Assembly (NCBI GenBank): GCA_017407325.1
Contig: JAFQWV010000028.1
Coordinates: forward strand, 1 to 64,000
Length of the DNA: 64,000 nucleotides
From: Clostridia bacterium
Lineage (GTDB): Bacteria; Bacillota; Clostridia; Christensenellales; Borkfalkiaceae
Reading direction: 5' to 3'
Each line of letters opens with the position of its first letter. Positions within the stretch are counted from its first letter, which is position 1. Made by a program: the position numbers and the translations under genes. Positions 12,909 through 33,256 of the stretch are shown one piece after another. The notes below the pieces were generated by a model. That model worked only from the letters and a program-made list of their open reading frames with translations, did no database searches and had not been told where the DNA came from.

Positions 12909-14714
12909 TTAAACTAAAAGCGTTCCTTCGGTTGTTTCAACAACTCTAAATATTTGTGTTTCTTTACCTGTTTTTGCATCAATATAAACGTAATAAGTTG
13001 CGCCGTTAAACGTTCCGCTTATTTCATAAGCTAAAGATTCTTTGCCTTCGCCCTTTGGAATTTGACAAAGTCTTACCGTTTCTACGTCTAAATTTTGCGA
13101 CATTTTTTCAAGTGCTTGCTTTTTAGAAATTGCTGGCTTTTCGATTTCTCTTTCTTTATGGTTTAGATAGTATTCGGTAGCGTCAAAGCTTGAAACGATT
13201 CCACGTTCTTGACAAACGGTAATTTTAACCATATCGGGATAAATTATAACGCCATTTTCTTCGTATGCGTAGTTTATATAAACGACTGCGCTACTTTCGG
13301 TTGCCCAAACGGCTTTCATATTATCAAGTTCCATACCCTTTAAAAATTCGTTTGCAATTTCAACGCAAGTATCAATATCCGTTTCAGTTACGTTACAATC
13401 TTTATAGCAGTCGAACATTACGATTTTACCACCCTGTTTACTTATTTCTGCCAAAACAGAGCTTTCACTATCTATCATACCTTCAATTTGATAGCAAGTA
13501 ATCTTGCCTTCAACTTCGCCCTTAACCTCAACCGTTTCAAAATTATAATCTTTGAAGGTTGATTTAAAGATGTCTAAAGCTTCAGTCGCACTAATTTCTT
13601 CACCTTCGATATTTTTTGCAGTGTCGGTATCTAAACTGTCAGAGAACGGTCCGTCGTAAATAAGTTTTGGATAGTCAACTGCGCCCTTTTCAAGAGTAAC
13701 GAAGCTGTCAAGCACCGCGTTCTCTTTTTCACCTGCCATAAGCGAAGTAAATTTATAATTTTCGCCAAGCCTTGAAGCTAAAGTATCAAGCTCAGATTTT
13801 AAGCTATCATTGATTTTTGCCATGCTTTGAAGGTTTTCCCAATCTGTTTTTGACAAATTTAACCCGTCTATAAGCTTATTATCGAGATATTTTGAAAAAT
13901 CTGCAACTTGGTTTACAAACTTCATAGTATAATATTTGCTCTCATCCTGAAGTGGTAATTCGCTTAGTTTATCACTTGCTAAGCTTGCTTGAGTAGTGAT
14001 ATCTCCAAGTAGGCGTTGTTGCTCGGACTCGTCGTTAGAAACCATCATTTTTGATAAGTTTACGTCAATGTTATCAACGTAGCCAACAAGGTCGTAAAAC
14101 GAACGCTCTATCGTGTTTTCAAACATGTCTTTACCGCCAAAATCTGAAACGAGAGTGTAGGTAAAGAGTGCGCTAAGAACTAACACGAGTGACGAAAGTG
14201 TAACAACTGCAGCAATCCAGCCACCCACACCACGCGATCTCTTATCGCGTTTTTCTTGATATTTAAGTTCGCGTTTTTGTGCTTTTAATTCTTTTTTAGC
14301 CTTAAGCCTTTCACGCTTTAGTCTAAGCATTTCTTCTCTTTCACGAGAAAGTTCAGCCATCTTTTCAGCCTTTTTTTGCTTTCTTTCTTCCTTTTCGCGA
14401 GAAAGTCTTTCTGCTTTTTGAAGGGCATTTTCATTTTTTAAGGCTTCTTTTCTTTTTTGTTTTTCTTCAAGTCGTTTTTCTCTCTCACGCTTCATTTTTT
14501 CTTCTCTTTCCTTCTTCTCAGCCTTTTTGGCTTGTCTAATAAGCGCAAGTTCTTCGCGTCTTTTTTCCATCATAAGCGCCCTTTCAACTCTTTTAGCTTC
14601 TTCGTTAGAATTTTCCGCCATCTGGTTAGCTTCAACCGTATTTTTAAGGCTTTGGTCATTTTCTTGACTTGCTAAGTTTTCTACTTTTTCAGTAGCGTTA
14701 TTTTTTTCTTCCAT
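12909..14714 (-). CDS. ypeB: YpeB-like germination protein with long charged N-terminal extension
   Basis: 601 aa. After the membrane segment (about 165-187) comes a YpeB-type region (ERSFYDLVGYVDNIDVNLSKMM, later PKLIYDGPFSDSL) and PepSY-like repeats to the end. In Bacillus, YpeB stabilises and localises the spore cortex lytic enzyme SleB, and the two genes are neighbours, as here (sleB ends 18 nt upstream). The oddity is about 160 residues of Lys/Glu/Arg-rich coiled coil before the membrane segment, where Bacillus YpeB has only a few residues. YpeB is normally about 450 aa. Confidence 0.8.
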   Translation of the reverse strand: MEEKNNATEKVENLASQENDQSLKNTVEANQMAENSNEEAKRVERALMMEKRREELALIRQAKKAEKKEREEKMKREREKRLEEKQKRKEALKNENALQKAERLSREKEERKQKKAEKMAELSREREEMLRLKRERLKAKKELKAQKRELKYQEKRDKRSRGVGGWIAAVVTLSSLVLVLSALFTYTLVSDFGGKDMFENTIERSFYDLVGYVDNIDVNLSKMMVSNDESEQQRLLGDITTQASLASDKLSELPLQDESKYYTMKFVNQVADFSKYLDNKLIDGLNLSKTDWENLQSMAKINDSLKSELDTLASRLGENYKFTSLMAGEKENAVLDSFVTLEKGAVDYPKLIYDGPFSDSLDTDTAKNIEGEEISATEALDIFKSTFKDYNFETVEVKGEVEGKITCYQIEGMIDSESSVLAEISKQGGKIVMFDCYKDCNVTETDIDTCVEIANEFLKGMELDNMKAVWATESSAVVYINYAYEENGVIIYPDMVKITVCQERGIVSSFDATEYYLNHKEREIEKPAISKKQALEKMSQNLDVETVRLCQIPKGEGKESLAYEISGTFNGATYYVYIDAKTGKETQIFRVVETTEGTLLV

Positions 14715-14732: not shown

Positions 14733-15440
14733 TTAAACAGCAAAGACGTGATTGCCGAAAGTTGCGACCGTCTTTCTTGAGTAAATCCAAGAACTTGTTG
14801 CAGTTCTAGGGTTGTAGTAGTAAATTGCGCCACCTGTTGGGTCCCAACCGTTCATAGCCGCTTTTGCCGCTTTTATTGCAGTATCGTTTGGCGTAAGATT
14901 AATTTGCCCGTCAGCTACAACCGTAAACGCATAAGGTTGATAAATAACACCCGAGATTGTGTTCGGGAAAGACGAGCTTCTTACCCTATTTAAAACCACC
15001 GCAGCAACTGCCACTTGACCGGTGTAGCTTTCACCTCGCGCTTCGCCGTATACAAGTCGCGCTAAGAGATTGATATCCGAACTAGAATATCCACCTGCTC
15101 CTTGCGAAGAAGATGCGCCAGAAGAACTCATACCAAGCGCTTTAAGTGTGTTAGGTCCGATTATACCGTCAACCTTAAGTCCGTTTTTTCTTTGGAAATA
15201 TTCTACTGCACTTTTAGTTTTCGGTCCGTAAATTCCGTCGACTGCACCTTTATAATATCCCCAATTTTTAAGTTTTTGTTGCGCGGTTTTAACAGTATCA
15301 CCTTTAGCCCCTTGATTTAAAACAACTGCAGCCGCGACGTCTTGTGCGTCTGTGTTTCTGATCGCCACAACTTGTGAAAAGCCGACTATAATCATAGCAA
15401 TACACAAGCATAGCGAAAGTATGCGTAATGCTTTTTTCAT
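14733..15440 (-). CDS. sleB: Spore cortex-lytic enzyme SleB
   Basis: 235 aa. Signal peptide (about 1-27), a peptidoglycan-binding domain (about 45-105, GAKGDTVKTAQQKLKNWGYYKGAVDGIYG) and a SleB/CwlJ-type hydrolase domain (about 120-235, LLARLVYGEARGE with the likely catalytic Glu, then VAAVVLNRV). It cleaves muramic-delta-lactam cortex peptidoglycan during germination. Domain order and length match Bacillus and Clostridium SleB. First gene of the sleB-ypeB pair. Confidence 0.92.
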   Translation of the reverse strand: MKKALRILSLCLCIAMIIVGFSQVVAIRNTDAQDVAAAVVLNQGAKGDTVKTAQQKLKNWGYYKGAVDGIYGPKTKSAVEYFQRKNGLKVDGIIGPNTLKALGMSSSGASSSQGAGGYSSSDINLLARLVYGEARGESYTGQVAVAAVVLNRVRSSSFPNTISGVIYQPYAFTVVADGQINLTPNDTAIKAAKAAMNGWDPTGGAIYYYNPRTATSSWIYSRKTVATFGNHVFAV

Positions 15441-15481: not shown

Positions 15482-16009
15482 CTAATTTTTATTTTTAAAT
15501 TTTTCAATTATGTCAAGTATTAGCGAGCGATAAATTACGTTTTTAGTATCCGTAAAACAAAGTGGCGGATAGACCACGCACCACCAATTATCCCCTGTAC
15601 CGCTTCCAAGGTTTATAATTAGCGCGTCATAAATTCCCGCCTCAAGCGTAACGTCTTCGTAAACGCGAGTTGGAAAATTTTCAGATAGAATTTGAACGCT
15701 AGATGAATAATTAAAACCTTTTTGAGCCAAAAACTCGTCTATAACGCGATTAATGCCACTTAAATTTTCGTTAAGCATCTTTTTGGCGTCGCTTTTAGAA
15801 TAACATTTACTGACTTTTGGCGTTAAATATTCAACCACTAAATCTTTAATTTCGTATTTTATATTTTGGTCGATTGCCGTGTTTGAGTTTGCGCGAATAT
15901 GAAGGCGCAAATATTCAGTTTGGGTTGAAGATTTATTTCCAAAAACAATCAGCAAAATTATTATGGCTAAGATAAAAAAACTTATGCAACACTTTTTAAA
16001 ATCAATCAT
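15482..16009 (-). CDS. spoIIR: Stage II sporulation protein R
   Basis: 175 aa. N-terminal membrane/signal segment (about 9-26), then the conserved LRLHIRANSNTAIDQNIKYEIKD start of the SpoIIR domain and GDNWWCVVYPPLCF near the end. SpoIIR is made in the forespore and secreted to trigger SpoIIGA processing of pro-sigma-E in the mother cell. Length fits the short clostridial form. It precedes the sleB-ypeB pair on the same strand. Confidence 0.9.
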   Translation of the reverse strand: MIDFKKCCISFFILAIIILLIVFGNKSSTQTEYLRLHIRANSNTAIDQNIKYEIKDLVVEYLTPKVSKCYSKSDAKKMLNENLSGINRVIDEFLAQKGFNYSSSVQILSENFPTRVYEDVTLEAGIYDALIINLGSGTGDNWWCVVYPPLCFTDTKNVIYRSLILDIIEKFKNKN

Positions 16010-17009: not shown

Positions 17010-18482
17010 TTATTTCTGTCTGTAATAGATTATTTTTTCGCCACCAGATAGTGGAAATTCAAGGTCGGGATTAAGTGCGTAAATTTCGTCAATTGAAACG
17101 CCAAATTCCTTTTCAATTGCCCACTCGTCGTCGCCACTTTGTCCTAAATATACGCTAATAGCCGAGCTATTAGCCACTTTTTCTTGACCTTCTAAAATTT
17201 CTTCGATATATTCAACAATATATTCTTCAAGTTTTTTAGCGGTAATTTTAACTGCGCCGTCGCAAAGAAGCTGACCGTTTTTAAACTTTACGGATAGACT
17301 TGATAAACACATTGAAACGTCGCTAGCAAAGTCGAAACTACCGTCCATTGCAAAAGATAGAGTAAGCTCACCTTTTTTAGAAACGACTTCACCTTCTCCG
17401 TCAACAAAAATCATATCTGCATAAATAATTGCATCAATTTTTAAAACGCCGTCAGAAACTTCACTGTCAACAATTTCAACCGTTTCACCCGTTGCAGTAA
17501 CAAAGCGAGAATTTTCTGGGATTTGACAAATAAACTTGCCGTCAATTTTTTCCGTTCTTATAAACTCGCCCAAAAGTCTTTTTGCTTTATCGCTAGCGCG
17601 AACAATTTCAACTTCACAAGCCGTTGAATAAGCGTCTGTTACGGCGATTTTTTCAACTTTTTGCTCGCACTCAGTAAATATTTTAAGACCTACAATAGTA
17701 TTTACCGTACTCTTTTCACCGTCAACCGACGTATAGACCTTAAGAGAAAGCTTTTCTATCTGACAAACCGCGTAGCTTATAGAGTCAGGACCTATGCTAG
17801 GCGTTTCAACTTCTATGCTAAACGGAATACATCTTCTTTCTTTTACTATATCACTATTTGGTAAAAAAGGCAACAAACTAAGCGATAAAAAAACTTCACC
17901 TTCAACCAAAACGTTACCGTAGTTACACTCTGTACGATTTACGACAGCGCTCGCTTGAGAAAAGAGAACGTTTTTAAGCTTATCGCACTCGAATTCGTCG
18001 TCAAGGTCGATTGAAAGCTCGCCTTTTTTCTTTTCATAAAGAACGACTGGACTTTGCTTTTTAAGCACGTCACAACCGGCTAAGAAAGTTTTTTCCTTTC
18101 CTGTTTCACCTAAAATATGCGCCGATAGCACGGTTTCTGCGTAAAGCAAGCCATTATTTTTCTTAAGCGTAATTTCGCCGAGCGTGTAATTCACCGTTGC
18201 GCTATCAAAATTGAAATCACCTTGCTTTTTGAACGAAAACTCTGCACCAACTTCTAATCTTTCGTATCCGTCAGAAAGATAAATTACGTTGAAGGTAATA
18301 CGACCACCATAGCGAATTTCATTTGCGCTCGTTTCAATAAAAGGCGAGAATACCGCACCGCTAGCGGACAAAATTTTGTCAAAATGCGAATCGGATAAAT
18401 TTAAGCTTGTTTCTATTCTATTTTGTTCTAAATAACTTTCTTTACTATCCATTCTAAAAGCATCGTACTCTGTGTTTATCAT
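17010..18482 (-). CDS. SipL-like spore coat morphogenesis protein (SPOCS domains plus LysM)
   Basis: 490 aa. Repeated SPOCS/DUF3794 domains (clear at about 160-240, VLFSQASAVVNRTE, and about 310-400, RFVTATGETVEIVDSEVSDGVLKIDAIIY) and a C-terminal LysM-like domain (about 440-490, WAIEKEFGVSIDEIYALNPDL). This layout matches SipL of Clostridioides difficile, which binds SpoIVA through its LysM domain to assemble the coat. Function is taken from that family. Confidence 0.8.
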   Translation of the reverse strand: MINTEYDAFRMDSKESYLEQNRIETSLNLSDSHFDKILSASGAVFSPFIETSANEIRYGGRITFNVIYLSDGYERLEVGAEFSFKKQGDFNFDSATVNYTLGEITLKKNNGLLYAETVLSAHILGETGKEKTFLAGCDVLKKQSPVVLYEKKKGELSIDLDDEFECDKLKNVLFSQASAVVNRTECNYGNVLVEGEVFLSLSLLPFLPNSDIVKERRCIPFSIEVETPSIGPDSISYAVCQIEKLSLKVYTSVDGEKSTVNTIVGLKIFTECEQKVEKIAVTDAYSTACEVEIVRASDKAKRLLGEFIRTEKIDGKFICQIPENSRFVTATGETVEIVDSEVSDGVLKIDAIIYADMIFVDGEGEVVSKKGELTLSFAMDGSFDFASDVSMCLSSLSVKFKNGQLLCDGAVKITAKKLEEYIVEYIEEILEGQEKVANSSAISVYLGQSGDDEWAIEKEFGVSIDEIYALNPDLEFPLSGGEKIIYYRQK

Positions 18483-18552: not shown

Positions 18553-18587
18553 ACAAAAATAAAGCGTGGTAATTTCAACCACGCTTA
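18553..18587 (-). terminator. Terminator overlapping the veg stop codon
   Basis: AAGCGTGGT pairs with ACCACGCTT, then TTATTTTT on the minus strand. Confidence 0.75.
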
Positions 18588-18848
18588 CGTTTTAATTTTT
18601 TGAATTTTTACTAAATTACAAATTAGTTCTGTATAGGAAAAACTCGTTTTCCCTAAAAACTTAGGATCTTTCGGCAAGACTGTAAAGAGTGCAGGATATA
18701 CACCCGACACAACACCCAAATAGGAAACGAACTTATTCCGTCCCAAATTTTGGGTTACGACCACCTTACCGCCTTCTAGCCTTTTAACAGCGCGCTTTAC
18801 TACGTTTAAATCAATGTCCGACTTTATCATAGTACTATTATGCGCCAA
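18585..18848 (-). CDS. veg: Veg family protein
   Basis: 87 aa, the Veg length. The conserved layout is present: a first beta-rich half (LEGGKVVVTQNLGRNKF) and TSFSYTELICNLVKI near the end. Veg is a short, highly expressed protein of Firmicutes linked in Bacillus to biofilm regulation; its biochemistry is not settled. It is followed at once by a terminator and seems to form its own unit. Confidence 0.78.
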   Translation of the reverse strand: MAHNSTMIKSDIDLNVVKRAVKRLEGGKVVVTQNLGRNKFVSYLGVVSGVYPALFTVLPKDPKFLGKTSFSYTELICNLVKIQKIKT

Positions 18849-18872: not shown

Positions 18873-19382
18873 TTAAAAATCGTCGTCGTCATCTTCATCA
18901 TCTTCATCTTCTTCGTCGTAGTCTTCAAACTCGCTCGCGTCAACAGGTGAGAAGTCAAAATCGTCTTCTGGATCCTCGTATTCCTCTTCTTCCTCAAGAT
19001 ATTCTTCTTCGTCGTCAAAAAGCTCGTCTGCTTCTTCTTGTTGAAGTTGGTTAAGAGAAAGCATTTCTTCACTGTTTTCGCTGTTGATGATATCGTCTTT
19101 TTCGTCGTCGTCAAGGAAGTTACGCCATTCTTCATCGTTTTCAATGTCCACTTCTCTTTCTTCGTGATATCTTCTTTCTTCTTTGCAACTTTCGCACATA
19201 TCCTTGTTGTAAGGAATATAACTGCTTTTACAAATTGGGCAAAGTTTTTCTTGCATATCTTCGTCGTCAATCGCAAACATAAGCTGTGGACCGAGTTTAA
19301 GTTCAGCCTTACAAACGTCGCAATAACCTTCTTCTTCCTTAATATAATTTAGTTCACATCTTGGACAAAGTTTGTATCCCAT
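18873..19382 (-). CDS. Zinc-ribbon protein with acidic tail
   Basis: 169 aa from the ATG at 19382 (MGYKLCPRCELNYI); an in-frame ATG 12 nt upstream is less well placed. Four CxxC pairs (CPRC, CDVC, CPIC, CESC) in the first 70 residues can form two zinc ribbons. The last 100 residues are almost all Asp/Glu. No family name. Acidic tails of this kind also occur on the aquaporin in this window, suggesting a lineage habit. It starts upstream of veg on the same strand. Confidence 0.7.
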   Translation of the reverse strand: MGYKLCPRCELNYIKEEEGYCDVCKAELKLGPQLMFAIDDEDMQEKLCPICKSSYIPYNKDMCESCKEERRYHEEREVDIENDEEWRNFLDDDEKDDIINSENSEEMLSLNQLQQEEADELFDDEEEYLEEEEEYEDPEDDFDFSPVDASEFEDYDEEDEDDEDDDDDF

Positions 19383-19554
19383 AATAGCTCCCACGGTAAT
19401 TTTGCTAAAAAGTTATCGAAAGTATTCTACCCTTTAACAAAAAATTTATACTTATTTTGTATATTTCGCAATAAGTATAATAATATTATATTAATTTGTA
19501 AACTGTTTTGTCCAAAAATTTCAAAAAATTAAGAAAAATTTTTAATTTTTTATA

Positions 19555-20292
19555 CTAAGCACCTTCTAGAAGCATTTTGTCGGCAACAAGCGCAATAAAC
19601 TCGCCGTTTGTAGGCTTTTCGCTACCGACGTAAGCACGCACACCGAAAAGGTTGTTAATGCTATCAATTCTTCCCCTATTCCAAGCAACCTCTATCGCGT
19701 GACGGATTGCGCGCTCGACTTTCGACGGAGTAGTTTCGTACTTTTCGCCAATTTTAGGGTACAGCTCTTTTGTGATGCTATTAATAATCGCAGGACGGTC
19801 AATCGCCATTTTTACCCCTTCACGAAGATACGAATACCCCTTTATGTGCGGTGGAATTCCAACGGATATAAAAATTTTACTTATCCTTTCTTCTAGTGTT
19901 GCGTTATGAACCTTCGCTTGCGCTATGCCACCAAACAACTCTTGAAGTCTTGCGTTTATCAGCGAGCTTTCAACCGGCTTTACAAGGTAATAAACAGCCC
20001 CTTTTGATATCGCACTGCGAATGATGTCGTCAGATACGATAGAGCTTAAAATTACCGTTTTAACGTTCGGCGCATTAAGCTTAACCCTTTCACAAACCTC
20101 AAGCCCGTCAATACCTGCTAACGTTATAGAAGTTATAACTAAATCTGGCGATAACTTTAAAATCTTTTGTACGCCGTCTAAACCGTTGAGTGAACTTCCG
20201 ATTATTTTGAACTTTTGAGTGTCAATCGCTTTCATAAGTGAATTTAACGCCGTTTCATCTTCTTGTATCAAAAAAACGCTTGCAATAGCCAT
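19555..20292 (-). CDS. spo0A: Spo0A-like sporulation regulator with degenerate receiver
   Basis: 245 aa. The C-terminal Spo0A DNA-binding domain (about 128-245) is well kept: IPPHIKGYSYLREGV, then SKVERAIRHAIEVAW (recognition helix) and GEFIALVADKM. The N-terminal receiver (about 4-120) keeps the fold and the Lys of LVKPVE, but the phosphoacceptor position is Ser55 (DLVITSITLAGIDG, where Spo0A has LDIIMP), and the acidic pocket reads Gln-Glu instead of Asp-Asp. It may be phosphorylation-independent or differently activated. A second normal Spo0A elsewhere cannot be excluded. Confidence 0.85.
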   Translation of the reverse strand: MAIASVFLIQEDETALNSLMKAIDTQKFKIIGSSLNGLDGVQKILKLSPDLVITSITLAGIDGLEVCERVKLNAPNVKTVILSSIVSDDIIRSAISKGAVYYLVKPVESSLINARLQELFGGIAQAKVHNATLEERISKIFISVGIPPHIKGYSYLREGVKMAIDRPAIINSITKELYPKIGEKYETTPSKVERAIRHAIEVAWNRGRIDSINNLFGVRAYVGSEKPTNGEFIALVADKMLLEGA

Positions 20293-20499
20293 AAGCCACC
20301 CTCCAAAAATTCTAACCTATTCATTTTAACATAATTTTAAAAAAAGTAAAATGATTTTTCGCATAATTTCGAACGAAATTAGTAATATTTTGTCGAATTT
20401 TAAATAAAAATAAAAAATCATTGATACAATCAATGATTTTAATAATATTTTGTTAGCATAAAAAAGAATTTTGTCGAATTTTAGTATTTTTGAACGAAA

Positions 20500-24499: not shown

Positions 24500-24511
24500 A
24501 CGGTGGATAAA

Positions 24512-24712
24512 ATGAAAAACGAATTAAAAATAAGACAAGCAAAACCATTAGAAGAAGTTAAAAAATCACTTGAATTATGTTCAAAAAACACAAATTGCGA
24601 TAAATGTTCTTATCGCCATAGCGATTTTTGTTTTCGTGAGTTGTGCAAAGACGTTTTATTCTATATGAAAATAAATAAAATTCAAGATATACGCGACAAA
24701 AAGTCGGTCTGA
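24512..24712 (+). CDS. Small Cys-rich phage protein
   Basis: 66 aa from the ATG at 24512 (MKNELKIRQAKPLEE); a GTG 9 nt upstream is also possible. Cys residues in CSKNTNCDKCSYRHSDFCFRELC suggest a small zinc-binding fold. It starts 12 nt after the SprT-like gene, so it is probably translated from the same transcript. No family recognised. Confidence 0.55.
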   Translation: MKNELKIRQAKPLEEVKKSLELCSKNTNCDKCSYRHSDFCFRELCKDVLFYMKINKIQDIRDKKSV

Positions 24713-24796
24713 CGAGTCTTTGAAAATTAAGACGAAACAAGGCAGGTTTGCTCCTTAACTGCCTTGTCACTGACAAAAAAAGGTAGGTAATTAAAA

Positions 24797-25243
24797 ATGG
24801 CAAACGAAAAAAACACAAATCAAAACGAAGTATTAAACGAAACAGTTGCAACGGAAACAGTCGCAAACAAGGTTGAAACACCTAAACTATTTATCACGCG
24901 TGAACCTTTTACAAGTTCTAAAAACGGCGAAACTTATTTTGCTTATTTGTTACGTGGTAAGGCGCGCGGTAAGGACGTTAAAGTTGATTTCTCACCTAAA
25001 GATATTGGCGGTTATGAGCCTTTAGATATTGTATTTGACGGCACTGACACTGCGGAACTTATTATAAGCGAAGAAAAAATGACTGACGATAACGGCAATA
25101 AAGTTTCTTATACGACTTATACCGTCCGCAATATTGACGAAGACGGCAACGTTTGGCAATGTCCTGTAAAACCGACACGCGGAAGTGACAAGTCTTTACT
25201 TGATATGCTCTTATTAACGTTAAAAATAAACAAAAAACAATAA
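24797..25243 (+). CDS. Candidate phage ssDNA-binding protein
   Basis: 148 aa. A 30-residue polar start, then a compact beta-rich domain (FITREPFTSSKNGETYFAYLLRGKARGKDVKVDF, TTYTVRNIDEDGNVW). Size, beta content and early position fit the single-stranded DNA-binding protein that inoviruses need to coat replicated strands (gene V analogue). No signature confirms it, so the call is by context. RBS AGGTAGG. Confidence 0.45.
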   Translation: MANEKNTNQNEVLNETVATETVANKVETPKLFITREPFTSSKNGETYFAYLLRGKARGKDVKVDFSPKDIGGYEPLDIVFDGTDTAELIISEEKMTDDNGNKVSYTTYTVRNIDEDGNVWQCPVKPTRGSDKSLLDMLLLTLKINKKQ

Positions 25244-25246
25244 TTT

Positions 25247-25268
25247 TTGAAAGTGTATTTTCAAAAAA
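25247..25268 (+). repeat. 22-bp hairpin repeat, copy 1
   Basis: TTGAAAGTGTATTTTCAAAAAA, identical to 30950-30971. Symmetric TTTTTGAAA/TTTCAAAAA arms flank a GTGTAT centre. Each copy lies just upstream of a gene with a GGGGTAA ribosome site (25280 and the Rep gene at 31002). Confidence 0.6.
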
Positions 25269-25279
25269 AGGGGTAATTT

Positions 25280-25396
25280 ATGAAAAAGAAAGTAACTAAA
25301 CCATTAAAGGAACGCAAAAAGTTACTACTGACTTCATTTATTAAAGGTTATTCCTTTTTAGATTGCAGGCAAAATAAAGCGGTTTTTGCTTTATAA
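25280..25396 (+). CDS. Possible 38-aa phage peptide
   Basis: A short basic frame (MKKKVTKPLKERKKLL) after GGGGTAATTT. It has the same upstream repeat as the Rep gene, which is the main reason to list it. Composition is Lys-rich then hydrophobic. Could be non-coding. Confidence 0.3.
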   Translation: MKKKVTKPLKERKKLLLTSFIKGYSFLDCRQNKAVFAL

Positions 25397-25584
25397 TTTG
25401 GCGAAGAAAAAGCAACTAAAAAGCGGTTATTCCCTTTTGAGTTGCTTTGGCAAGGCAAAGGAAAAACAAAAATAAAAGGTTGTCAAACGGCGTAAGAAAA
25501 GATTTTTATATAAGCCACTGCATTATGCTAAAAATGTTTTTGAAACGTGATTGACAACCTTTTAAGCGTTAAAAGGAAAAAACT
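25397..25584 (+). other. Structured non-coding prophage segment
   Basis: AAAGCAACT (25409-25417) pairs with AGTTGCTTT (25440-25448). A 13-bp inverted repeat AAAAGGTTGTCAA (25474-25486) and TTGACAACCTTTT (25551-25563) encloses 64 nt. No open frame. In inoviruses such segments can be replication origins or packaging signals; the role here is unknown. Confidence 0.45.
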
Positions 25585-25737
25585 ATGCAAAGACGAAAAT
25601 TAAATAATCAAACAAATTCTTTACAAGCAAGAAGACGGATAAAGTTTTTTTACGAGCGTAAAAAAATTTTATGCGACAAATGCGACTTACGTCAATTATC
25701 GTCTAACGATATAAAGAAAATTACAAAAATTTATTAA
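25585..25737 (+). CDS. Small basic phage protein
   Basis: 50 aa, Arg/Lys-rich (MQRRKLNNQTNSLQARRRIKF) with a CDKC pair. An AAAAGGAAAA ribosome site precedes the ATG. It may bind nucleic acid. No family. Confidence 0.4.
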   Translation: MQRRKLNNQTNSLQARRRIKFFYERKKILCDKCDLRQLSSNDIKKITKIY

Positions 25738-25793
25738 ACTAAAAAATCAATAGTCCAAGCGACTTTAAAAATATAGGTGTAAAGTGTGTCTAA
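25736..25793 (+). repeat. Leader repeat copy 1 (58 bp)
   Basis: First of three near-identical 53-58 bp sequences, each covering the end of one small gene and the ribosome site and start of the next. Core GACTTTAAAAATATAGGTGT. Confidence 0.75.
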
Positions 25794-26040
25794 TTCAAAT
25801 TTTTATGATAGTTATATCGAGCATTTGGATATTGAAACCGCTAAAAAAAATAAACAACGTTCTAAGCAGTTGAAATTATCACAAAAAGCACATAAAAGGC
25901 TTGAAGACAAAGCAATAAAAAATAATGATTATGACTCAATGGTTTATCATAATTACGTTTCTTATCAACAGGCTAAAAGGAATTGTGTGTTAAGTTCCGC
26001 TGAACGAAAGAGAATTTATAGAAAACTAAAAAATCAATAG
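25786..26040 (+). CDS. Small phage protein
   Basis: 84 aa from a GTG inside leader repeat 1 (AGGTGT upstream). Lys/Arg/Gln-rich and predicted helical (KKNKQRSKQLKLSQKAHKRL). No membrane segment or family. Its last codons form the first bases of leader repeat 2. Confidence 0.5.
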   Translation: MSNSNFYDSYIEHLDIETAKKNKQRSKQLKLSQKAHKRLEDKAIKNNDYDSMVYHNYVSYQQAKRNCVLSSAERKRIYRKLKNQ

Positions 26041-26080
26041 TCCACGCGACTTTAAAAATATAGGTGTAAAGTGTGTCTAA
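26023..26080 (+). repeat. Leader repeat copy 2 (58 bp)
   Basis: Differs from copy 1 at one position (TCCACGCG instead of TCCAAGCG). It contains the GTG start of the next gene. Confidence 0.75.
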
Positions 26081-26321
26081 AAGGTTTAATTATACGAAAA
26101 ATGAGAATTATACTAAATTTAATTGGAAAGTAAAAAATATTTTTCAAGGGCGCGACGGTAGATTATATGCGGTAATTGAACGTCCGCAAGCGAGTGATTA
26201 TGTTGTTGCGCGTGGTTTTGATAAGCGCGACGGACGTTGGGCACAGGGCGAGTATGGTTATAGTTCGCGCAATAAAGCAAAAAAGCGCGCAAAAACATTA
26301 AGTAATAAAAGGTTTTATTAA
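26073..26321 (+). CDS. Small basic phage protein
   Basis: 82 aa from a GTG inside leader repeat 2. Aromatic and Arg-rich (KVKNIFQGRDGRLYAVIERPQ), with a basic C-terminus (NKAKKRAKTLSNKRF). Not similar to the proteins before and after, although all three share the same leader DNA. No family. Confidence 0.5.
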   Translation: MSKRFNYTKNENYTKFNWKVKNIFQGRDGRLYAVIERPQASDYVVARGFDKRDGRWAQGEYGYSSRNKAKKRAKTLSNKRFY

Positions 26322-26375
26322 TAAAAAATCAATAGTCCACGTGACTTTAAAAATATAGGTGTAAAATATGGCTAA
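26319..26375 (+). repeat. Leader repeat copy 3
   Basis: TAAAAAATCAATAGTCCACG, then TGACTTTAAAAATATAGGTG, as in the other copies. The start region is changed so that the gene begins with ATG (26368) instead of GTG. Confidence 0.7.
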
Positions 26376-26595
26376 AAGAAGTAAAAATTTTAAACGTAAA
26401 AAAAGAAGTGTTAGCGAAATTCGTAGTTATTGGGTTGGTGTTGGTATTGCATTAGGACATGCAGGCAACGGAAATGTAACTCCAATTTTTGCTAATGCAA
26501 AACATGAAAAATCTATGCGTGCAGGTTTTAATAAAGAGATGAATTCTAATTATTATAATACACCTACAGGCAAAGCAAATTTGTTTGATGATTAA
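26368..26595 (+). CDS. Small phage protein
   Basis: 75 aa. A basic start (MAKRSKNFKRKKRSVSE), then SYWVGVGIALGHAGNG and an acidic end. The central stretch is only weakly hydrophobic. No family. Third gene of the leader-repeat series. Confidence 0.5.
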   Translation: MAKRSKNFKRKKRSVSEIRSYWVGVGIALGHAGNGNVTPIFANAKHEKSMRAGFNKEMNSNYYNTPTGKANLFDD

Positions 26596-26633
26596 AATAA
26601 AACGCTCTATTTTGGGCGTTAAGGTGGTGTTAT

Positions 26634-27128
26634 ATGTTTGTTCACGGTAAAACAGGAAAAACTTATTATTCAGTTCGTGAAAAGATTAATTATTATAATA
26701 AAGTAATAAATGGTAAAATTGAAGTTTCGCCTGCCGTTAAAAGAAAGGCTAAGTTAAGATTGAAATCACTTATTAAAATTAATGAACAAGATTATTCCGT
26801 TCCAAGGATAATTATGACAAATGATAAAAAATTTAATAGTGATAATTTTGAAAAACCAAGAATTTGTGTGGCTATTAAAGAAGACGATAAAAATCGTATC
26901 TTTGTTGCTCCAATGCTTAAAACAAATTCGCAAACAATTATATTAGACAAGGATATAAATCGTCAAATTTCTAATACTTCCGAAGGTCACTGTCGTTGGA
27001 TAGACAAAAGTGACGTTTATGAAACAAAGACGATTTCTAATGTTTGTAGTTTGTCTAAGTATGATATAGCAAAGATTAGAAAAATTTTTGTTGGAAAGAA
27101 AGTAAAAAAAAATAACACGACTTATTAG
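26634..27128 (+). CDS. Phage protein, possibly MazF/PemK-like fold
   Basis: 164 aa. The C-terminal half (RICVAIKEDDKNRIFVAPML, then HCRWIDKSDVYETKTI and SLSKYDIAKIRKIF) follows the strand/helix pattern of PemK/MazF-type proteins, but the catalytic residues cannot be assigned and no antitoxin is evident, so this is a weak resemblance. The N-terminus (about 1-55) is basic and helical. RBS AAGGTGG before the ATG. Confidence 0.4.
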   Translation: MFVHGKTGKTYYSVREKINYYNKVINGKIEVSPAVKRKAKLRLKSLIKINEQDYSVPRIIMTNDKKFNSDNFEKPRICVAIKEDDKNRIFVAPMLKTNSQTIILDKDINRQISNTSEGHCRWIDKSDVYETKTISNVCSLSKYDIAKIRKIFVGKKVKKNNTTY

Positions 27129-27134
27129 GTCGTG

Positions 27135-27228
27135 TTGGTGCAAGGTCAACTTGCTGACCGCTAACGATAAGCGGTATTTTCGATAGACCGTGCCAAAGGC
27201 TAAGTTACTATCACTATATTAATAGTAT
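27135..27228 (+). other. Multi-hairpin non-coding prophage segment
   Basis: An outer TTGG/CCAA pair (27135-27138/27193-27196) encloses hairpins GGTCA/TGACC (27144-27148/27155-27159) and ACCGCT/AGCGGT (27157-27162/27070-offset arm at 27170-27175). GCAAG/CTTGC (27140-27144/27150-27154) is an alternative to the first. TACTAT/ATAGTA follows (27206-27227). It separates the small-gene block from the structural genes; could be a replication origin, packaging signal or RNA switch. Confidence 0.4.
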
Positions 27229-27276
27229 TAAAAAAATAATTTAAAGTCAACTATTTTTTAGGAAAAATTTAATTTT

Positions 27277-27498
27277 ATGGGAAATTTTATGCGAAACTTT
27301 ATAGAAACTTATGACGTTCACGACAAAACAAAAGTTTTAATACATATAAGTTCGATAAAAACCGTATCAAAAGACGCGGACAATTACACTTTTATTGAGT
27401 TAAAGCGCGACAATAACGGAAACGCTTACGGTATTAAAACAAATGAAAGTTACGACGTTATTTTTAACAAAATTTATTATGCTCAAGGGGGAAAATAA
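27277..27498 (+). CDS. Small phage protein upstream of the adsorption-like gene
   Basis: 73 aa; an internal ATG at 27289 is an alternative start. Beta-rich (KVLIHISSIKTVSKDADNYTFIELKRDNNGNAYGIKTNES), resembling short FlbD-like or SH3-like phage proteins in layout only. It ends 2 nt before the 687-aa gene, so the two are translationally linked. No family. Confidence 0.5.
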   Translation: MGNFMRNFIETYDVHDKTKVLIHISSIKTVSKDADNYTFIELKRDNNGNAYGIKTNESYDVIFNKIYYAQGGK

Positions 27499-27500
27499 AA

Positions 27501-29564
27501 ATGACAAATGAAAAGCAAAAAAAGAAAGGTTTAGGTTTATTCTTTTGGGTAAGCTTTATAACCGCAATAGCGATTATGTTCGGTCTAATGTTTCAAACTG
27601 CTATGCTTGTAAAAACCGCTAATGCGGACGAAAATTCTAATATAAATATTGACAAATTTGCAAGCGATTTTGATTTTGTAAAATATAGTTATACACTTGA
27701 AAACGAATTTAGTCACGGTGACGATTTTTCAGTTTATGGCAGTTGCACAAACACTATTACAAGTTGTTGCGACGAAGTTGTTCCGTTCATAAAAGACGGT
27801 GACACTGTGACTATTAAGCGTGAGCCGTGTTGTTATGATTACGACGAAAACGGTCAAATAATTGTAGAAGATTGGAAATTTGATTTGCTCGAAATATCGT
27901 ATTTACCTGTTATTGACGGCGTTTCTTATAATGGTGGCGAGTGCGGTAGTTGTGATACAATATTGATTTACGTTCAAGATTTTAACGCAACGGAAATTGT
28001 GCTTGATATTAACACTTTTGAAAATTTTGAAGTTGCAATTTTAGATATTAATTTTTATCAAAAAGCACAATTAAAAAACGGCGAAGTTCAATACGGAAAA
28101 TATTATTATTTCGCAGAAAGTTCTTTTTATCCATATTCTATGCGACCATATAACAATTACGTTAGAATTTTTACGGACTTTTGGTCTTTAACTTATAGTG
28201 GCGATAGTGCGTATGCGTATGGTTGTGCGCACGGTTTATATAACGGAACTTTAGACAGTTTCAATGAATTATACGGAAATACGACTTTGACGACAAATAC
28301 CGCGCTTAATAAGACTAATATCGAATATCCGTCAAATATCAATGAAGACGAAGAAAAGTATTATTTTCAAACAGGTTTTTTATCGACTTATATCAATGCG
28401 TATAACAATATAACGTTGCGCTATTACTGTAATATGTATGACGAAACGACTGAAAGCATTAAAACGTATCGCAATTTAACGTTTTATTATACGTTAGCAA
28501 GCGACGAAGAAAACGGCGGAAATTCAAGCGAAAATAGTTCTAATTCTGCACTACCTAATACAAGTGTTGAAATTCCTAAAACAAGTGCAAGTAATAGCAC
28601 CGAAAGTGGCGAAAATGACGTTGAAATAGTTGTATCAATTTATGACCATAATCACGAATATATTTCACAATTTATTGTAAACAAAGGCGTTACAATATCG
28701 CTTGACGATATTAAAAATGCTTGCGGTGGTGTATTGATTTGCGAAAAGTGGGAATTTTTTAACCCTGTAACTTTGGAAAGCGGTATATTTAATTTTGATA
28801 TGCCTATAGAAAATACGATTAATCTTTATGCGCGTATGTGTGAAGTTACGCTAAAAGATATTGACGAAAGTGTTTTAGGCGTTGTAAATGTTGAGTATAA
28901 AAACACGATATCTCTTGACGATATTAAAACGGCTTGCGGTGGTGAGTTACCTTTTGAGCGTTGGGAATATTTGTTAAGCGAATACGATTTTTCAAAAGAA
29001 GTAACTTACGATTTTGATTTGTATCCGTTAAACCACGATATAAATATTATGCTTAACGACCTTGACGACGACGTTGGCGCGATTGCAAGTTTAAAAGTTT
29101 ATGACAGTTCGACTGTTACTGTTGACGAATTAAAAGAAGTTGTTTCGGACGAATATAAAAACTTTAAGGTTATTAAGTCTTTATGTGTTGTTGACGGCGA
29201 TATTAAGCCTATTAATATTGAAACAACGCCTATAACTCAAGACGTTTACACGTTTATTTCCGTATCTAACGATAATCAAACGCCTGATAATTCTTCAACG
29301 CCTACGTCAAGCGACAATTTAGTTGAAAACAGTTCGGGAAACGTTGAAATTTCGGGAAGTAACGGATATACAGGCTCTGCGGTGCTTGGTGACGGCAACG
29401 AAAAAGGCTGTAACCATAAATTTACTTGGAAACCTATGGAATTTCCTTGTGCTTTATGCGGTATAGGTTTATGGGCGTATTTATGGCAGTATTTAAAGTG
29501 GGCAGTTTATGTTGCTATCGGTATTTTTGCGATTGTTATAATTGTAAAAATATTAAGAAAATAA
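27501..29564 (+). CDS. Putative phage adsorption protein (pIII-like)
   Basis: 687 aa. Signal peptide with KKK start, hydrophobic core (about 12-36) and likely cleavage at NADEN (about 40). A large exported domain rich in Tyr, Asp and Cys, a Ser/Asn-rich linker (about 335-375), two repeats containing ISLDDIKNACGG and ISLDDIKTACGG (about 395-500), a second Ser-rich linker and a C-terminal membrane helix with a KILRK end. Modular exported head plus C-terminal anchor is the plan of inovirus minor coat/adsorption proteins. It lies just upstream of the coat-like gene. No sequence family recognised. Confidence 0.65.
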   Translation: MTNEKQKKKGLGLFFWVSFITAIAIMFGLMFQTAMLVKTANADENSNINIDKFASDFDFVKYSYTLENEFSHGDDFSVYGSCTNTITSCCDEVVPFIKDGDTVTIKREPCCYDYDENGQIIVEDWKFDLLEISYLPVIDGVSYNGGECGSCDTILIYVQDFNATEIVLDINTFENFEVAILDINFYQKAQLKNGEVQYGKYYYFAESSFYPYSMRPYNNYVRIFTDFWSLTYSGDSAYAYGCAHGLYNGTLDSFNELYGNTTLTTNTALNKTNIEYPSNINEDEEKYYFQTGFLSTYINAYNNITLRYYCNMYDETTESIKTYRNLTFYYTLASDEENGGNSSENSSNSALPNTSVEIPKTSASNSTESGENDVEIVVSIYDHNHEYISQFIVNKGVTISLDDIKNACGGVLICEKWEFFNPVTLESGIFNFDMPIENTINLYARMCEVTLKDIDESVLGVVNVEYKNTISLDDIKTACGGELPFERWEYLLSEYDFSKEVTYDFDLYPLNHDINIMLNDLDDDVGAIASLKVYDSSTVTVDELKEVVSDEYKNFKVIKSLCVVDGDIKPINIETTPITQDVYTFISVSNDNQTPDNSSTPTSSDNLVENSSGNVEISGSNGYTGSAVLGDGNEKGCNHKFTWKPMEFPCALCGIGLWAYLWQYLKWAVYVAIGIFAIVIIVKILRK

Positions 29565-29582
29565 TTTTTTGGGGGTATGATT

Positions 29583-29735
29583 ATGGGTGCTAAAATTGGT
29601 GCGTTATTATCAAAATTCGGTCAATGGATATTTGCAAACCCTGTTAAATTCTTGATTGTATTGGGCTTGACTGTTGCGGGTGTATTTGCAATTTCATTGA
29701 TTATAAAGTTTATAAAATGGACTTTTAAACGTTAA
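29583..29735 (+). CDS. Putative major coat protein (pVIII-like)
   Basis: 50 aa. An amphipathic start (MGAKIGALLSKFGQWI), one membrane helix (about 22-42) and a basic end (KFIKWTFKR), the plan of mature filamentous-phage coat protein, whose basic C-terminus lines the DNA. No cleavable signal peptide is needed for this layout. Start at 29583 because GGGGG lies 7 nt upstream; an ATG at 29577 is too close. A strong terminator follows, as after the coat gene of Ff phages. Confidence 0.65.
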   Translation: MGAKIGALLSKFGQWIFANPVKFLIVLGLTVAGVFAISLIIKFIKWTFKR

Positions 29736-29742
29736 AATTAAG

Positions 29743-29772
29743 CCGTGAACGTGAAAACCGTTCACGGTTTTA
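29743..29772 (+). terminator. Terminator after the coat-like gene
   Basis: CCGTGAACG pairs with CGTTCACGG around a 7-nt loop, then TTTT. It separates the highly expressed structural genes from the Zot/Rep genes. Confidence 0.85.
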
Positions 29773-29797
29773 CCCTAACCCTTAAAGGAAAATTAAA

Positions 29798-30589
29798 ATG
29801 ATAACGATAATTTACGGAAAACCGAGAAAAGGTAAAACTTCATATATGACGGCACAATTAAACGAAATAGCTTTTGATAGAAAACGCAACCACGCAATGC
29901 AACTTGAAATAATGCAACGAAACGCAAGCGGTTTTAACTTAACTATACCGCAATATAGCGTATGCACGAATTACGGCGCAATGTTTCGTAAGTTTGGGTA
30001 TACGCCACGCCCTACAAACATTATAAACCCTTACCGTTTAGGTTTTGTCAATGATAGTGTAGATACGCACTTTTTACCGCCCTATTCGGCTATTGGGATA
30101 ATGGAAGGTCAACGCTATTTCAATTCACGCGCTTTTAAAAAATTCCCTGATTGGGTAAGTCGGTTTTATGAATTGCACGGTCACAATTATCTTGATATAT
30201 TCATAGATACGCAACGCCCTACGTTGATAGACCCTAATATTCGAGAATTGGCGAACTTTATTGAAATAGTAGATAAACAAAATTTGTCAAACGGCGGTAT
30301 ATCGTGGCTTATACGCTACATAGACGGCGAGCCTGAACGACTTGCATATATGGAAAGTGGAAGAAAGGACACGTCAACTTATACGGAAAGCGTTTTTACG
30401 ATTGATTATAACGTTTTTGAACGCTACGACAGTAGAGAGTCTAAACCGCTATTTTATGACGGAAATTTTGAAAGCGATTTTTATTTTAACTACTACGAGC
30501 CGAGCGACGGCAGTATAACTGCATTTAAAGACTATGCACAAAAACACGGCAAGGAAATGCCTGAAAAATTTTATAAAAAGGACGGATAA
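29798..30589 (+). CDS. Zot-like (pI) assembly ATPase
   Basis: 263 aa. Walker A in YGKPRKGKTSYM (about 6-17) and the Zot-type Walker B block YLDIFIDTQRPTLIDPNIRELANF (about 131-154). In filamentous phages this P-loop ATPase drives extrusion of ssDNA through the membrane as coat protein is added. Family members usually have a membrane helix in the C-terminal third; none is evident here. RBS AAAGGAAAA. Overlaps nothing upstream; the next gene follows 4 nt after the stop. Confidence 0.85.
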   Translation: MITIIYGKPRKGKTSYMTAQLNEIAFDRKRNHAMQLEIMQRNASGFNLTIPQYSVCTNYGAMFRKFGYTPRPTNIINPYRLGFVNDSVDTHFLPPYSAIGIMEGQRYFNSRAFKKFPDWVSRFYELHGHNYLDIFIDTQRPTLIDPNIRELANFIEIVDKQNLSNGGISWLIRYIDGEPERLAYMESGRKDTSTYTESVFTIDYNVFERYDSRESKPLFYDGNFESDFYFNYYEPSDGSITAFKDYAQKHGKEMPEKFYKKDG

Positions 30590-30593
30590 AAAA

Positions 30594-30953
30594 ATGGAAT
30601 TTTTAAAAAATGAGCTTTTAGAAAACGTAATGGATAATTATTACCAAACATTTGCAAAAACGCTTAATACCTGTGATTTTGTTCCTGAAAAGTATTGTAA
30701 TAAAATAAATAAATACATATTTAATGACATGAAACGCAGTTTTAAGCAAGCGGAAAAGGAATATAAACGCTATCGACGTAAAGAATTTTGGGCGAAATTT
30801 AAGTTTAAGTTTGGCGGTTTTAAGGCGGAAACGACTGCAAGACTTAACAATTTAGACGATAAATTAACCTATTTGTTAAAATTCTTTGTAAGCGATAACG
30901 CAAATAATGACGGCGAATTAAACGAAAAAGCCGAAAGCAAAAACAAAAATTGA
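30594..30953 (+). CDS. Phage protein downstream of Zot
   Basis: 119 aa from the ATG at 30594 (MEFLKNELLENVMDN, AAGGACGG upstream). The same frame is open 60 nt further, overlapping the Zot gene, but without a ribosome site. Basic central part (KQAEKEYKRYRRKEFWAKFKF) and acidic end; predicted helical; no membrane segment. No family. It may partner the Zot-like ATPase given the tight spacing (inference). Confidence 0.55.
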   Translation: MEFLKNELLENVMDNYYQTFAKTLNTCDFVPEKYCNKINKYIFNDMKRSFKQAEKEYKRYRRKEFWAKFKFKFGGFKAETTARLNNLDDKLTYLLKFFVSDNANNDGELNEKAESKNKN

Positions 30954-30971
30954 AAGTGTATTTTCAAAAAA
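30950..30971 (+). repeat. 22-bp hairpin repeat, copy 2
   Basis: Identical to 25247-25268. It overlaps the stop of the preceding gene and lies 30 nt upstream of the Rep start. Confidence 0.6.
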
Positions 30972-31001
30972 TTTGACAATTAAACTATTAAGGGGTAAAC
31001 T

Positions 31002-31970
31002 ATGTTTCAAAATTCACGTTTAACAAAAGTAAACGATAAAGATTTTCCGTTTTTTTTTGCGGACGATAAACCTTGTTTAGACGGTTTGTATAAGGTGTAT
31101 AACGACGGCGGTCACTTCGTTGCTACGCCTGTATATCAATTACAAAGCAAGGTAAAAAGTGGGCGCAAGGGAAAACAAGCGATTGATTATCTTTTTGACA
31201 GTCTATACAAAAATGCTATTGAAAAGAATTTAAAAAAACACAAACTTTACGAATACTTAAAAGACGGAATTTTGAAACTGTTTCCCGACTTTGAAGAAGT
31301 TGACAAATTTATAAGCGAAAAGATTGAGAGAAAGAAAAAGAACTTATATCAACGTATTAAAAGGTTTAAGCGTAAGGCTTATTTAAACCGTTGGAATTAT
31401 TTTATAACATTTACATACGACGATAAAAAACACGACGAAACTACTTTTAGAAAGAAGTTGCGCCGTTGTTTGTCGAACTTAAAAACGCGCCGAAATTGGC
31501 GATATATGGGCGTATTTGAGCGCGCGCCTGAAACAGGTCGATTGCATTTTCACGCCCTTTGTTATATCCCTGACGGTCAAATGGTTGGTAGCGTGTCGGA
31601 AGTTAAGGACTACGACAAAAAACACGGTATAATGCAAACTACGTTTTGCAACGATTTTTTTATGCAAAATTTTGGAAGAAACGATTTTAAGGAACTAAAC
31701 GAAATGGAAGTAACGCACGGAAACACAATCGAATATTTATTGAAATATATTGGGAAGTCTAACGAAAGAATTATTTACAGTCGCGGAATAGCAACGGAAG
31801 TATGTTTGAACTTAACGGAAAGTGAAATAGCAACCACAATGTTTGATTATGTCCAAAAGTTTATACTTTTTGACAAAATTATACAATGGGATATTCATAT
31901 AATGAATTTCAAACCGCGACAAATGTCAATGTTTGATATGTTCTGTAATTATCCGCAAGTAGCGGTTTAA
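31002..31970 (+). CDS. HUH-type rolling-circle replication initiator (Rep)
   Basis: 322 aa. Motif I FITFTYD (134-140), motif II HFHAL (182-186, the HUH metal site) and motif III YLLKYIGKS (245-253) with the catalytic Tyr and Lys, as in initiators of ssDNA phages. It nicks the origin and remains bound through the Tyr. RBS AAGGGG. It is followed by a terminator at 32003. The origin was not identified; candidates are the hairpin segments at 25.4, 27.1 and 32.2 kb. Confidence 0.88.
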   Translation: MFQNSRLTKVNDKDFPFFFADDKPCLDGLYKVYNDGGHFVATPVYQLQSKVKSGRKGKQAIDYLFDSLYKNAIEKNLKKHKLYEYLKDGILKLFPDFEEVDKFISEKIERKKKNLYQRIKRFKRKAYLNRWNYFITFTYDDKKHDETTFRKKLRRCLSNLKTRRNWRYMGVFERAPETGRLHFHALCYIPDGQMVGSVSEVKDYDKKHGIMQTTFCNDFFMQNFGRNDFKELNEMEVTHGNTIEYLLKYIGKSNERIIYSRGIATEVCLNLTESEIATTMFDYVQKFILFDKIIQWDIHIMNFKPRQMSMFDMFCNYPQVAV

Positions 31971-32002
31971 TTGCGATTTTAAAACAAAATATATCTTTTG
32001 TT

Positions 32003-32028
32003 AGCACCTGAAAAAACGGTGCTTTTTG
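32003..32028 (+). terminator. Terminator after Rep
   Basis: AGCACC pairs with GGTGCT (32003-32008/32018-32023) followed by TTTT. Confidence 0.75.
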
Positions 32029-32089
32029 TCGTGCGTGAAAAAACGATATTTTAATTAAAAAACCTATGATTTTTTAACTAAAAACATTT

Positions 32090-32135
32090 AACGGCGGTTT
32101 TGCAAAAACATTTGTTTTGCAAACCGCCGTTTTTC
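32090..32135 (+). terminator. Long terminator-like hairpin
   Basis: AACGGCGGTTTTGCAAAA pairs with TTTTGCAAACCGCCGTT with one bulged base and then TTTT. A second stop between Rep and the recombinase, or a ssDNA hairpin signal. Confidence 0.65.
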
Positions 32136-32195
32136 ATTACATTTAGCCACTTTTTTTGTGTTTTCTTGCTTTGTTTGCTCTCTTTTTCTCTCTTG

Positions 32196-32257
32196 CGCGA
32201 TACCTTGCTACGGAACGCGCAACGCGCGTTCCGCTTGTATTATAGCAAGGTATCGCG
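32196..32257 (+). other. Nested perfect hairpin upstream of the recombinase
   Basis: Outer 15-bp stem CGCGATACCTTGCTA/TAGCAAGGTATCGCG (32196-32210/32243-32257) and inner 10-bp stem CGGAACGCGC/GCGCGTTCCG (32211-32220/32224-32233), stacked directly, with a 9-nt bulge on one side. There is no T run, so it is not a terminator. A double-stranded signal on packaged ssDNA (packaging signal, conversion origin or recombinase site) is plausible. Confidence 0.6.
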
Positions 32258-32314
32258 TAATACTCTCTACTGTCAAAATTGACGGTTTTATCAATAATTA
32301 TAAGGGGTAATATT

Positions 32315-33256
32315 ATGTATAAATTCACTGCAAAAGAAAAACTATACGCACTAAGGGCGTTAAAAACTGCGGATATGTTAGTTGTGTGTCGCCGTTATAA
32401 GGTTAGCCGTGTCACTTTGTGGCGTTGGCGCAAACAGTATGACGGAACTTTGGAAAGTTTAGAACCTAAATTTAGTCGTAAGCACATTAAAATGCCTAAC
32501 GAGCAAACGGAAGAAGAAAAAACGATTATAAACAATTTGGTTAGGCGTAACCCTAATATAGGTTTAAACGAACTTTACGGCAAATTGTGTTCAAATTATG
32601 GATATAAGCGCAACCCTATAACTTTATATAGGTATTTGCGTAAAAGCAATTATTTTAAAACTAAAAAACGCAAGCTGTATAAACCTAAACCGTATATCAC
32701 GCCTTTGGAAATCGGCGAAAAATGGCAGTTGGACGTAAAATTTGTTCCGCGTGAGTGTTATTCTGGCGTAATCTATGAAAAAATGTATCAATACACCGTA
32801 ATAGACGAAGCAAGTCGAAAGCGGTATATAAGGGCTTATAAAGAACAGTCGTCCTATTCTACTATTGATTTTATCGTTCGTGCTTTTCGCTATTTTGGTT
32901 ATCAACCTAAAATTATACAAACGGATAACGGTCAAGAATTTACGTTTTTAAAAGGCGAAACACGTGACGGACGTATACACGCGTTTGATAAATTGTGTTT
33001 AAAGTTGGGAATAATTCATAAAACTATACGCCCACGCACACCACGTCACAACGGCAAAGTTGAAAGGTCGCACCGCAATGATAATGAAAGATTTTATAAG
33101 ACTCTGCGCTATTATGATTTTGACGACTTGCAAACGCAAATGTCACGATATTTAACACGTTCAAATAATATTCCGTCAAGCGTTTTGCGTTCAAAGTTTG
33201 ATAAACGGCGTTGGTTGAGTCCAAACGAAAAAGAAAAAGAATTGTTGTCACAATAA
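32315..33256 (+). CDS. DDE (rve) recombinase, likely phage integrase
   Basis: 313 aa from the ATG at 32315 (AAGGGG upstream); 12 codons upstream are open but lack a ribosome site. N-terminal helix-turn-helix (about 5-42, CRRYKVSRVTLWRWRKQY), an IS3/IS481-like linker and an integrase core with D140 (WQLDVKF), D204 (QTDNGQEF) and E250 (HNGKVERSHR). It is the last gene before the right repeat and the only recombinase in the element, so it probably performs integration. DDE enzymes in ssDNA phages are known (Spiroplasma phages), but site choice at a gene end is unusual. Confidence 0.85.
   Translation: MYKFTAKEKLYALRALKTADMLVVCRRYKVSRVTLWRWRKQYDGTLESLEPKFSRKHIKMPNEQTEEEKTIINNLVRRNPNIGLNELYGKLCSNYGYKRNPITLYRYLRKSNYFKTKKRKLYKPKPYITPLEIGEKWQLDVKFVPRECYSGVIYEKMYQYTVIDEASRKRYIRAYKEQSSYSTIDFIVRAFRYFGYQPKIIQTDNGQEFTFLKGETRDGRIHAFDKLCLKLGIIHKTIRPRTPRHNGKVERSHRNDNERFYKTLRYYDFDDLQTQMSRYLTRSNNIPSSVLRSKFDKRRWLSPNEKEKELLSQ

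Follow-up and report, generated by a model that had tools for sequence, protein, structure and literature searches.

To our knowledge, phosphorylation of Spo0A is regarded as the universal entry to endospore formation. The Spo0A proteins of Bacillus and Clostridium (TIGR02875; structures 1lq1, 1fc3, 1dz3, and 1qmp) have the same domain architecture and DNA-binding domain as the protein described here, and Spo0A boxes in the gene's own promoter and linkage to sporulation genes are likewise common to both. The isolated Spo0A DNA-binding domain binds legitimate Spo0A targets when unphosphorylated (PMC3485338). Aspartate-less receivers, or pseudo-receivers (reviewed in PMC4395418 and PMC12632262), also keep the receiver fold without the catalytic residues, and their known modes of control elsewhere are amount, dimerisation, or ligands (PMC12632262). 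For CmrT of C. difficile, which is also a pseudo-receiver regulator in Clostridia, control by amount together with positive autoregulation of its operon has been proposed (PMC12632262). We found no description in the open-access papers searched of a Spo0A without a phosphorylation site, nor of unphosphorylated binding combined with amount or ligand control in a sporulation master regulator, and a 2025 review of atypical response regulators does not name Spo0A (0 occurrences).

The spo0A gene and its phosphorylation pocket

A preliminary description of the window (the whole 64,000-nucleotide stretch of DNA that was analysed) had reported a Spo0A lacking the phosphoacceptor aspartate at 19555-20292, which proved correct and needed only the addition that the gene lies on the minus strand. 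The reading frame there is real and intact, while the plus-strand reading is rich in stops, and a GGAGG ribosome-binding site stands ahead of the ATG. The 245-residue product, composed of a receiver domain and a Spo0A_C domain, scored 214 bits against the full-length NCBIfam model TIGR02875 (spore_0_A), above its curated cut-off of 200, and also exceeded the Pfam cut-offs for Response_reg and Spo0A_C (133-134 bits for PF08769). The features of the gene are as follows.

19555..20292, minus strand: spo0A orthologue, pseudo-receiver plus Spo0A_C DNA-binding domain, 245 aa, above the TIGR02875 cut-off
19933..20280, minus strand: receiver-like domain spanning residues 5-120; its (beta-alpha)5 fold is predicted to be intact (mean pLDDT of 91-99 in 10-residue blocks)
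20260..20265, minus strand: codons for Gln10-Glu11, replacing the Mg2+-binding acidic pair
20128..20130, minus strand: codon for Ser55, replacing the phosphoacceptor Asp
20044..20046, minus strand: codon for Ser83, the Thr/Ser position, retained in this protein
19978..19980, minus strand: codon for Lys105, retained
19576..19884, minus strand: Spo0A_C DNA-binding domain, ~55% identical to the solved Spo0A DNA-binding domains 1fc3 and 1lq1

Alignment with relatives bore out the earlier assignment of Ser55 to the phosphoacceptor position, and the Gln-Glu reading of the acidic pair (Gln10-Glu11), the retained lysine (Lys105), and the strong DNA-binding domain were upheld as well. In this protein alone the register of the acidic pair could slide by one residue (Q10-E11-D12); it is settled by relatives that have LQDN, LESN, or LQEN next to the canonical VDDN. 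With Ser55 and Gln10-Glu11 the protein fails the definition of a phosphorylation-activated regulator, which calls for the Asp and the acidic pair, and it meets that of an aspartate-less pseudo-receiver, in which the receiver fold, here predicted, is kept and the Asp is absent. The AlphaFold model (mean pLDDT 91) contains a receiver fold and a DNA-binding domain and resembles solved Spo0A and response-regulator structures; because its pTM is 0.56, we do not trust the relative placement of the two domains.

Distribution, conservation, and orthology

The comparison of related genomes at Ser55 that had been suggested earlier revealed that the Asp is lost throughout the genus and that its loss is a family-wide trait. 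Each of the seven genus genomes carries one full Spo0A, and none has Asp55 (0/7; S, E, or G instead). The family sample comprised 82 Spo0A sequences from 18 genera; 62 of them lack Asp55 and none has a complete phosphorylation pocket, which, with the absence of Asp55 from the genus, makes this more than chance or sequencing error. Other families of the order keep the Asp in 58 of 64 Spo0A proteins and a fully canonical pocket in 47 of 64. The pocket is dismantled across the family without a common replacement residue: position 55 varies among G, S, E, N, and A (Ser or Glu in 30/82), and since it is Gly in 25/82 and Asn in 6/82 there is no common acceptor there. Position 83 is Gly in 33/82, and position 105 is Lys in 76/82. 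Some family members may still be phosphorylated, because 20 of the 82 keep Asp55; most members of one genus (g2) additionally retain one acid, Ser/Cys, and Lys.

On a quick, unrooted tree, the Spo0A proteins of the family formed one clade together with a single sequence of family f9, and the nearest relatives of this clade, families f19 and f9, are likewise eroded. The sampled tree requires ten switches between Asp and another residue, the direction of which was not inferred. A class-wide sample of 86 Spo0A-type proteins had mainly canonical pockets, with further losses scattered; Asp-less proteins occur at loci L393 and L395 (family f40), L376, L371, and L401 of other Clostridia families, and some of these also lack the Lys. 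The relatives in the genome scan are all metagenome assemblies, chiefly from animal gut (Candidatus Coproplasma, Gallimonas, Onthoplasma, and uncultured Clostridia), and from these names we infer that the genome belongs to the Borkfalkiaceae/Christensenellales.

The family has kept the predicted receiver fold along with its alpha4-beta5-alpha5 face, and the DNA-binding domain as well. The loss of conservation at the five pocket positions exceeded that of sets of receiver columns drawn at random (permutation p about 7e-5). Measured against canonical proteins, the steepest declines were, among others, at the Asp, at the second of the two acidic residues, at the beta3-alpha3 loop Pro, and at the Thr/Ser and the residue next to it. 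Conservation of the whole receiver was close to that of canonical proteins (0.335 vs. 0.352), that of the alpha4-beta5-alpha5 dimer face was unchanged relative to canonical Spo0A, and that of the DNA-binding domain was higher (0.76 vs. 0.685). Some receiver columns of the family gained conservation (Phe28, Pro49, Leu58, and Lys/Arg71), and the spo0A reading frames are unbroken throughout the family.

Judged by synteny, membership in one clade, and copy number, the Asp-less gene is the true spo0A orthologue and usually the only full Spo0A. The genes that follow it in the window are listed here.

18873..19394, minus strand: zinc-ribbon protein with an acidic tail, directly downstream of spo0A, also present at canonical Spo0A loci
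18585..18848, minus strand: Veg-family protein, second conserved downstream neighbour
17010..18482, minus strand: SipL/SPOCS-domain protein (spore coat/cortex type)
15482..16009, minus strand: SpoIIR, sporulation signalling protein
14733..15440, minus strand: SleB, spore cortex-lytic enzyme
12909..14714, minus strand: YpeB, germination protein

The zinc-ribbon and Veg genes lie downstream of spo0A at Asp-less and canonical loci alike. Of the 61 family genomes, 59 encode SpoIIE-type proteins and all encode sigF-type sigma factors, in both cases with scores below the curated cut-offs of the models. The family apparently forms spores, an inference from the genes of metagenome-assembled genomes.

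Several further observations were made at these loci. At most loci in which it was detected, the zinc-ribbon gene, whose product has a very acidic tail, directly follows spo0A; as a new dedicated Spo0A partner it was rejected as unspecific, since canonical spo0A has the same downstream gene. In one sister genome (L236, G001:C22), a 1341-aa protein with a Cas9-like N-terminus is encoded directly downstream of spo0A. Genus g2 contains short frames of about 134-139 aa with Spo0A_C and no room for a receiver (e.g., G039:C7:34263-34556), and locus L234:12515-14893 encodes a Spo0A_C paralogue with an intact receiver, an AgrC-like GHKL sensor, and ABC transporter genes, possibly a peptide-sensing system. 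Elsewhere in the window, an Inovirus-like prophage occupies 24500-33260 between the rplJ/rplL and rplA/nusG genes and encodes a long secreted-type protein (27501-29564), a Zot-like assembly ATPase (29798-30589), a rolling-circle replication protein (31002-31970), and an IS-type transposase (32279-33256). Translations of 44892-46778 and 56762-57385 resemble C-terminal Rhs/YD-repeat fragments, which may be remnants of polymorphic toxins.

Kinases and Spo0A boxes

A check for phosphorelay kinases, also suggested by the preliminary description, left none of the three HisKA kinases of the window genome free for Spo0A, as each directly adjoins an OmpR-type response regulator. No unpaired HisKA kinase and no stand-alone Spo0F-like receiver were found in this genome, which is about 95% complete, and its one GHKL sensor adjoins a second Spo0A_C protein. 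The other HATPase_c matches of this genome are consistent with gyrase/topoisomerase, SpoIIAB, a MutL/HSP90-type protein, and a decayed PhoR-type histidine kinase. This last is a short remnant that lies inside its contig (G000 C14:43152-43433, L306). In two sister genomes (G001 and G005), all response regulators except Spo0A are near a kinase match; a small HATPase protein of the sister genomes was rejected as an orphan kinase because it is located in a hydrogenase-type gene cluster. A relative, G027 (96% complete), yielded no match in the HisKA search, and gyrase/topoisomerase, SpoIIAB, MutL, and HSP90 would account for its five HATPase_c matches, as judged by length only, with no alignment. 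On that basis neither HisKA nor HATPase_c points to a histidine kinase in G027, and this genome carries an Asp-less Spo0A (Glu55), SpoIIE, sigF-type genes, and a Spo0A box. The absence of kinases rests on metagenome-assembled genomes that are 94-97% complete.

Two perfect Spo0A boxes lie upstream of spo0A in the window.

20388..20399, plus strand: proximal perfect Spo0A box TTTTGTCGAATT, at ~-105, reverse relative to spo0A
20469..20480, plus strand: distal perfect Spo0A box TTTTGTCGAATT, at ~-186

Within 300 bases upstream of spo0A, TGTCGAA was the most enriched 7-mer; it was present at 59 of 75 loci, against a mean of 3.0 and at most 8 in shuffles and 2/72 in a distant control, and it lay mostly in reverse orientation near -95 to -150. 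It was equally frequent before the Asp-less genes of the family (37/59) and the canonical genes of the order (23/39). The canonical box is kept in the promoter of spo0A itself, where its binding by the Asp-less protein is inferred. Over the whole window TGTCGAA was no more frequent than expected, and when the extended box was counted across genomes of the genus, it did not clearly exceed a reversed-pattern control. Perfect boxes were absent from most spoIIE promoters and present in only some spoIIA promoters; direct control of these genes is therefore not shown, and autoregulation is the only target class that is supported.

Probable sporulation control without the receiver pocket

Since the receiver pocket is lost while the DNA-binding half and the gene's own boxes are kept, the sporulation decision must be controlled otherwise. 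We consider it probable (about 0.75) that this protein is the true Spo0A of its lineage, turned into a phosphorylation-independent, aspartate-less pseudo-receiver that is probably controlled by dosage and autoregulation and/or by a ligand or partner. Of the two readings offered in the preliminary description, a bypass of phosphorylation in sporulation control or a paralogue with another signal, the first is thus supported and extends to the whole family. We know of no DNA-binding, phosphorylation, or sporulation experiment for this family, and the steps that follow are inferred. The full-length protein would bind Spo0A boxes without being phosphorylated; its receiver would either dimerise even in the unphosphorylated state or have ceased to repress the DNA-binding domain. 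What then sets the activity would mainly be how much protein the cell makes, with the gene's own boxes providing feedback, a ligand or protein partner that acts on the pseudo-receiver, or both. Amount with autoregulation is, tentatively, the likeliest of these modes of control.

Binding of a small molecule or protein in the vacated pocket or at the alpha4-beta5-alpha5 face ranks second; it is a sub-version of the preferred explanation, so that its likelihood does not add to it, and we regard it as possible at most. It can draw on the receiver fold, which is retained despite the lost chemistry, on the columns that gained conservation, and on the ligands that other pseudo-receivers are known to bind (PMC12632262), whereas neither a candidate ligand nor a dedicated partner gene was found and the adjoining zinc-ribbon gene is also present at canonical Spo0A loci. 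Phosphorylation by other chemistry, in which a kinase would modify Ser55, Glu55, or another acidic residue, is compatible with the Ser or Glu at position 55 in 30 of 82 proteins, with the kept Lys105, and with a Ser83 that is often kept. It is improbable in view of the lack of a common acceptor at position 55, the Gly at position 83 in 33 of 82, the absence of a free HisKA kinase from the window genome, and the failure to find one in G027.

Decay is harder still to sustain: if sporulation were being lost and the receiver were degenerating under relaxed selection, small genomes, pocket residues that drift among G, S, E, and N, and the decayed PhoR-type kinase fragment would all fit. That reading is disfavoured by conservation and gene inventory, however, and we think it very unlikely. 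The DNA-binding domain is conserved above that of canonical relatives, the receiver core and dimer face are unchanged, reading frames are intact family-wide, SpoIIE-type and sigF-type genes are near universal, spore and germination genes adjoin spo0A, and the Spo0A boxes are retained. Least credible, and largely refuted, is the proposal that the Asp-less protein is a side paralogue serving another signal while sporulation is run by a canonical, phosphorylated Spo0A that the genome encodes at another locus. The preliminary description had named such a canonical copy as the finding that would overturn its own reading. The sole other Spo0A_C protein of the genome (C20:78123-78410) is just outside the window on the same contig as spo0A and has an intact receiver, and several family genomes carry further Spo0A_C copies, most having one full Spo0A. 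Against this, the DNA-binding domain of the second protein is divergent (61 vs. 134 bits), its spore_0_A score is 87 bits against the cut-off of 200, and it adjoins its own GHKL sensor and ABC transporter genes; it is a divergent side paralogue, part of a side system, and no canonical second Spo0A was found in this genome, which is about 95% complete. The near-complete sister genomes G001 and G005 yielded neither a second Spo0A_C copy nor an unpaired response regulator other than Spo0A, and the zinc-ribbon and Veg synteny ties the Asp-less gene to canonical spo0A, which, with its usual status as the only full copy, marks it as the orthologue.

Returning to the phosphorylation-independent Spo0A, we think it somewhat likely that a whole family of Clostridia, along with several further lineages independently, uses a non-phosphorylatable Spo0A to start sporulation, in some cases without any histidine kinase, and relies on dosage or ligand control instead. 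If this is true, the sporulation decision can be wired without a phosphorylation pocket in an uncultured animal-gut family, which would account for the sporulation kinases that cannot be found in such genomes. The Spo0A proteins of this family would then be natural candidates for phosphorylation-independent Spo0A and for studying how a receiver controls its output without phosphorylation chemistry.

Each step of the proposed mechanism has a precedent, in the unphosphorylated binding of Spo0A targets (PMC3485338) and in control by amount, dimerisation, or ligand (PMC12632262). In contrast to the Spo0A of Bacillus and Clostridium, the window protein lacks the phosphoacceptor Asp, its acidic pair is broken, and its genome has no unpaired HisKA kinase. 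Unlike the isolated Spo0A DNA-binding domain, it retains a folded receiver domain, and any relief from repression would therefore need to stem from the receiver's own sequence. Whereas CmrT is an accessory OmpR-type regulator in a three-gene system with a canonical partner, the protein described here is a single-copy master regulator, and it differs from known pseudo-receivers in that the loss affects a master regulator of development and prevails in a bacterial family.
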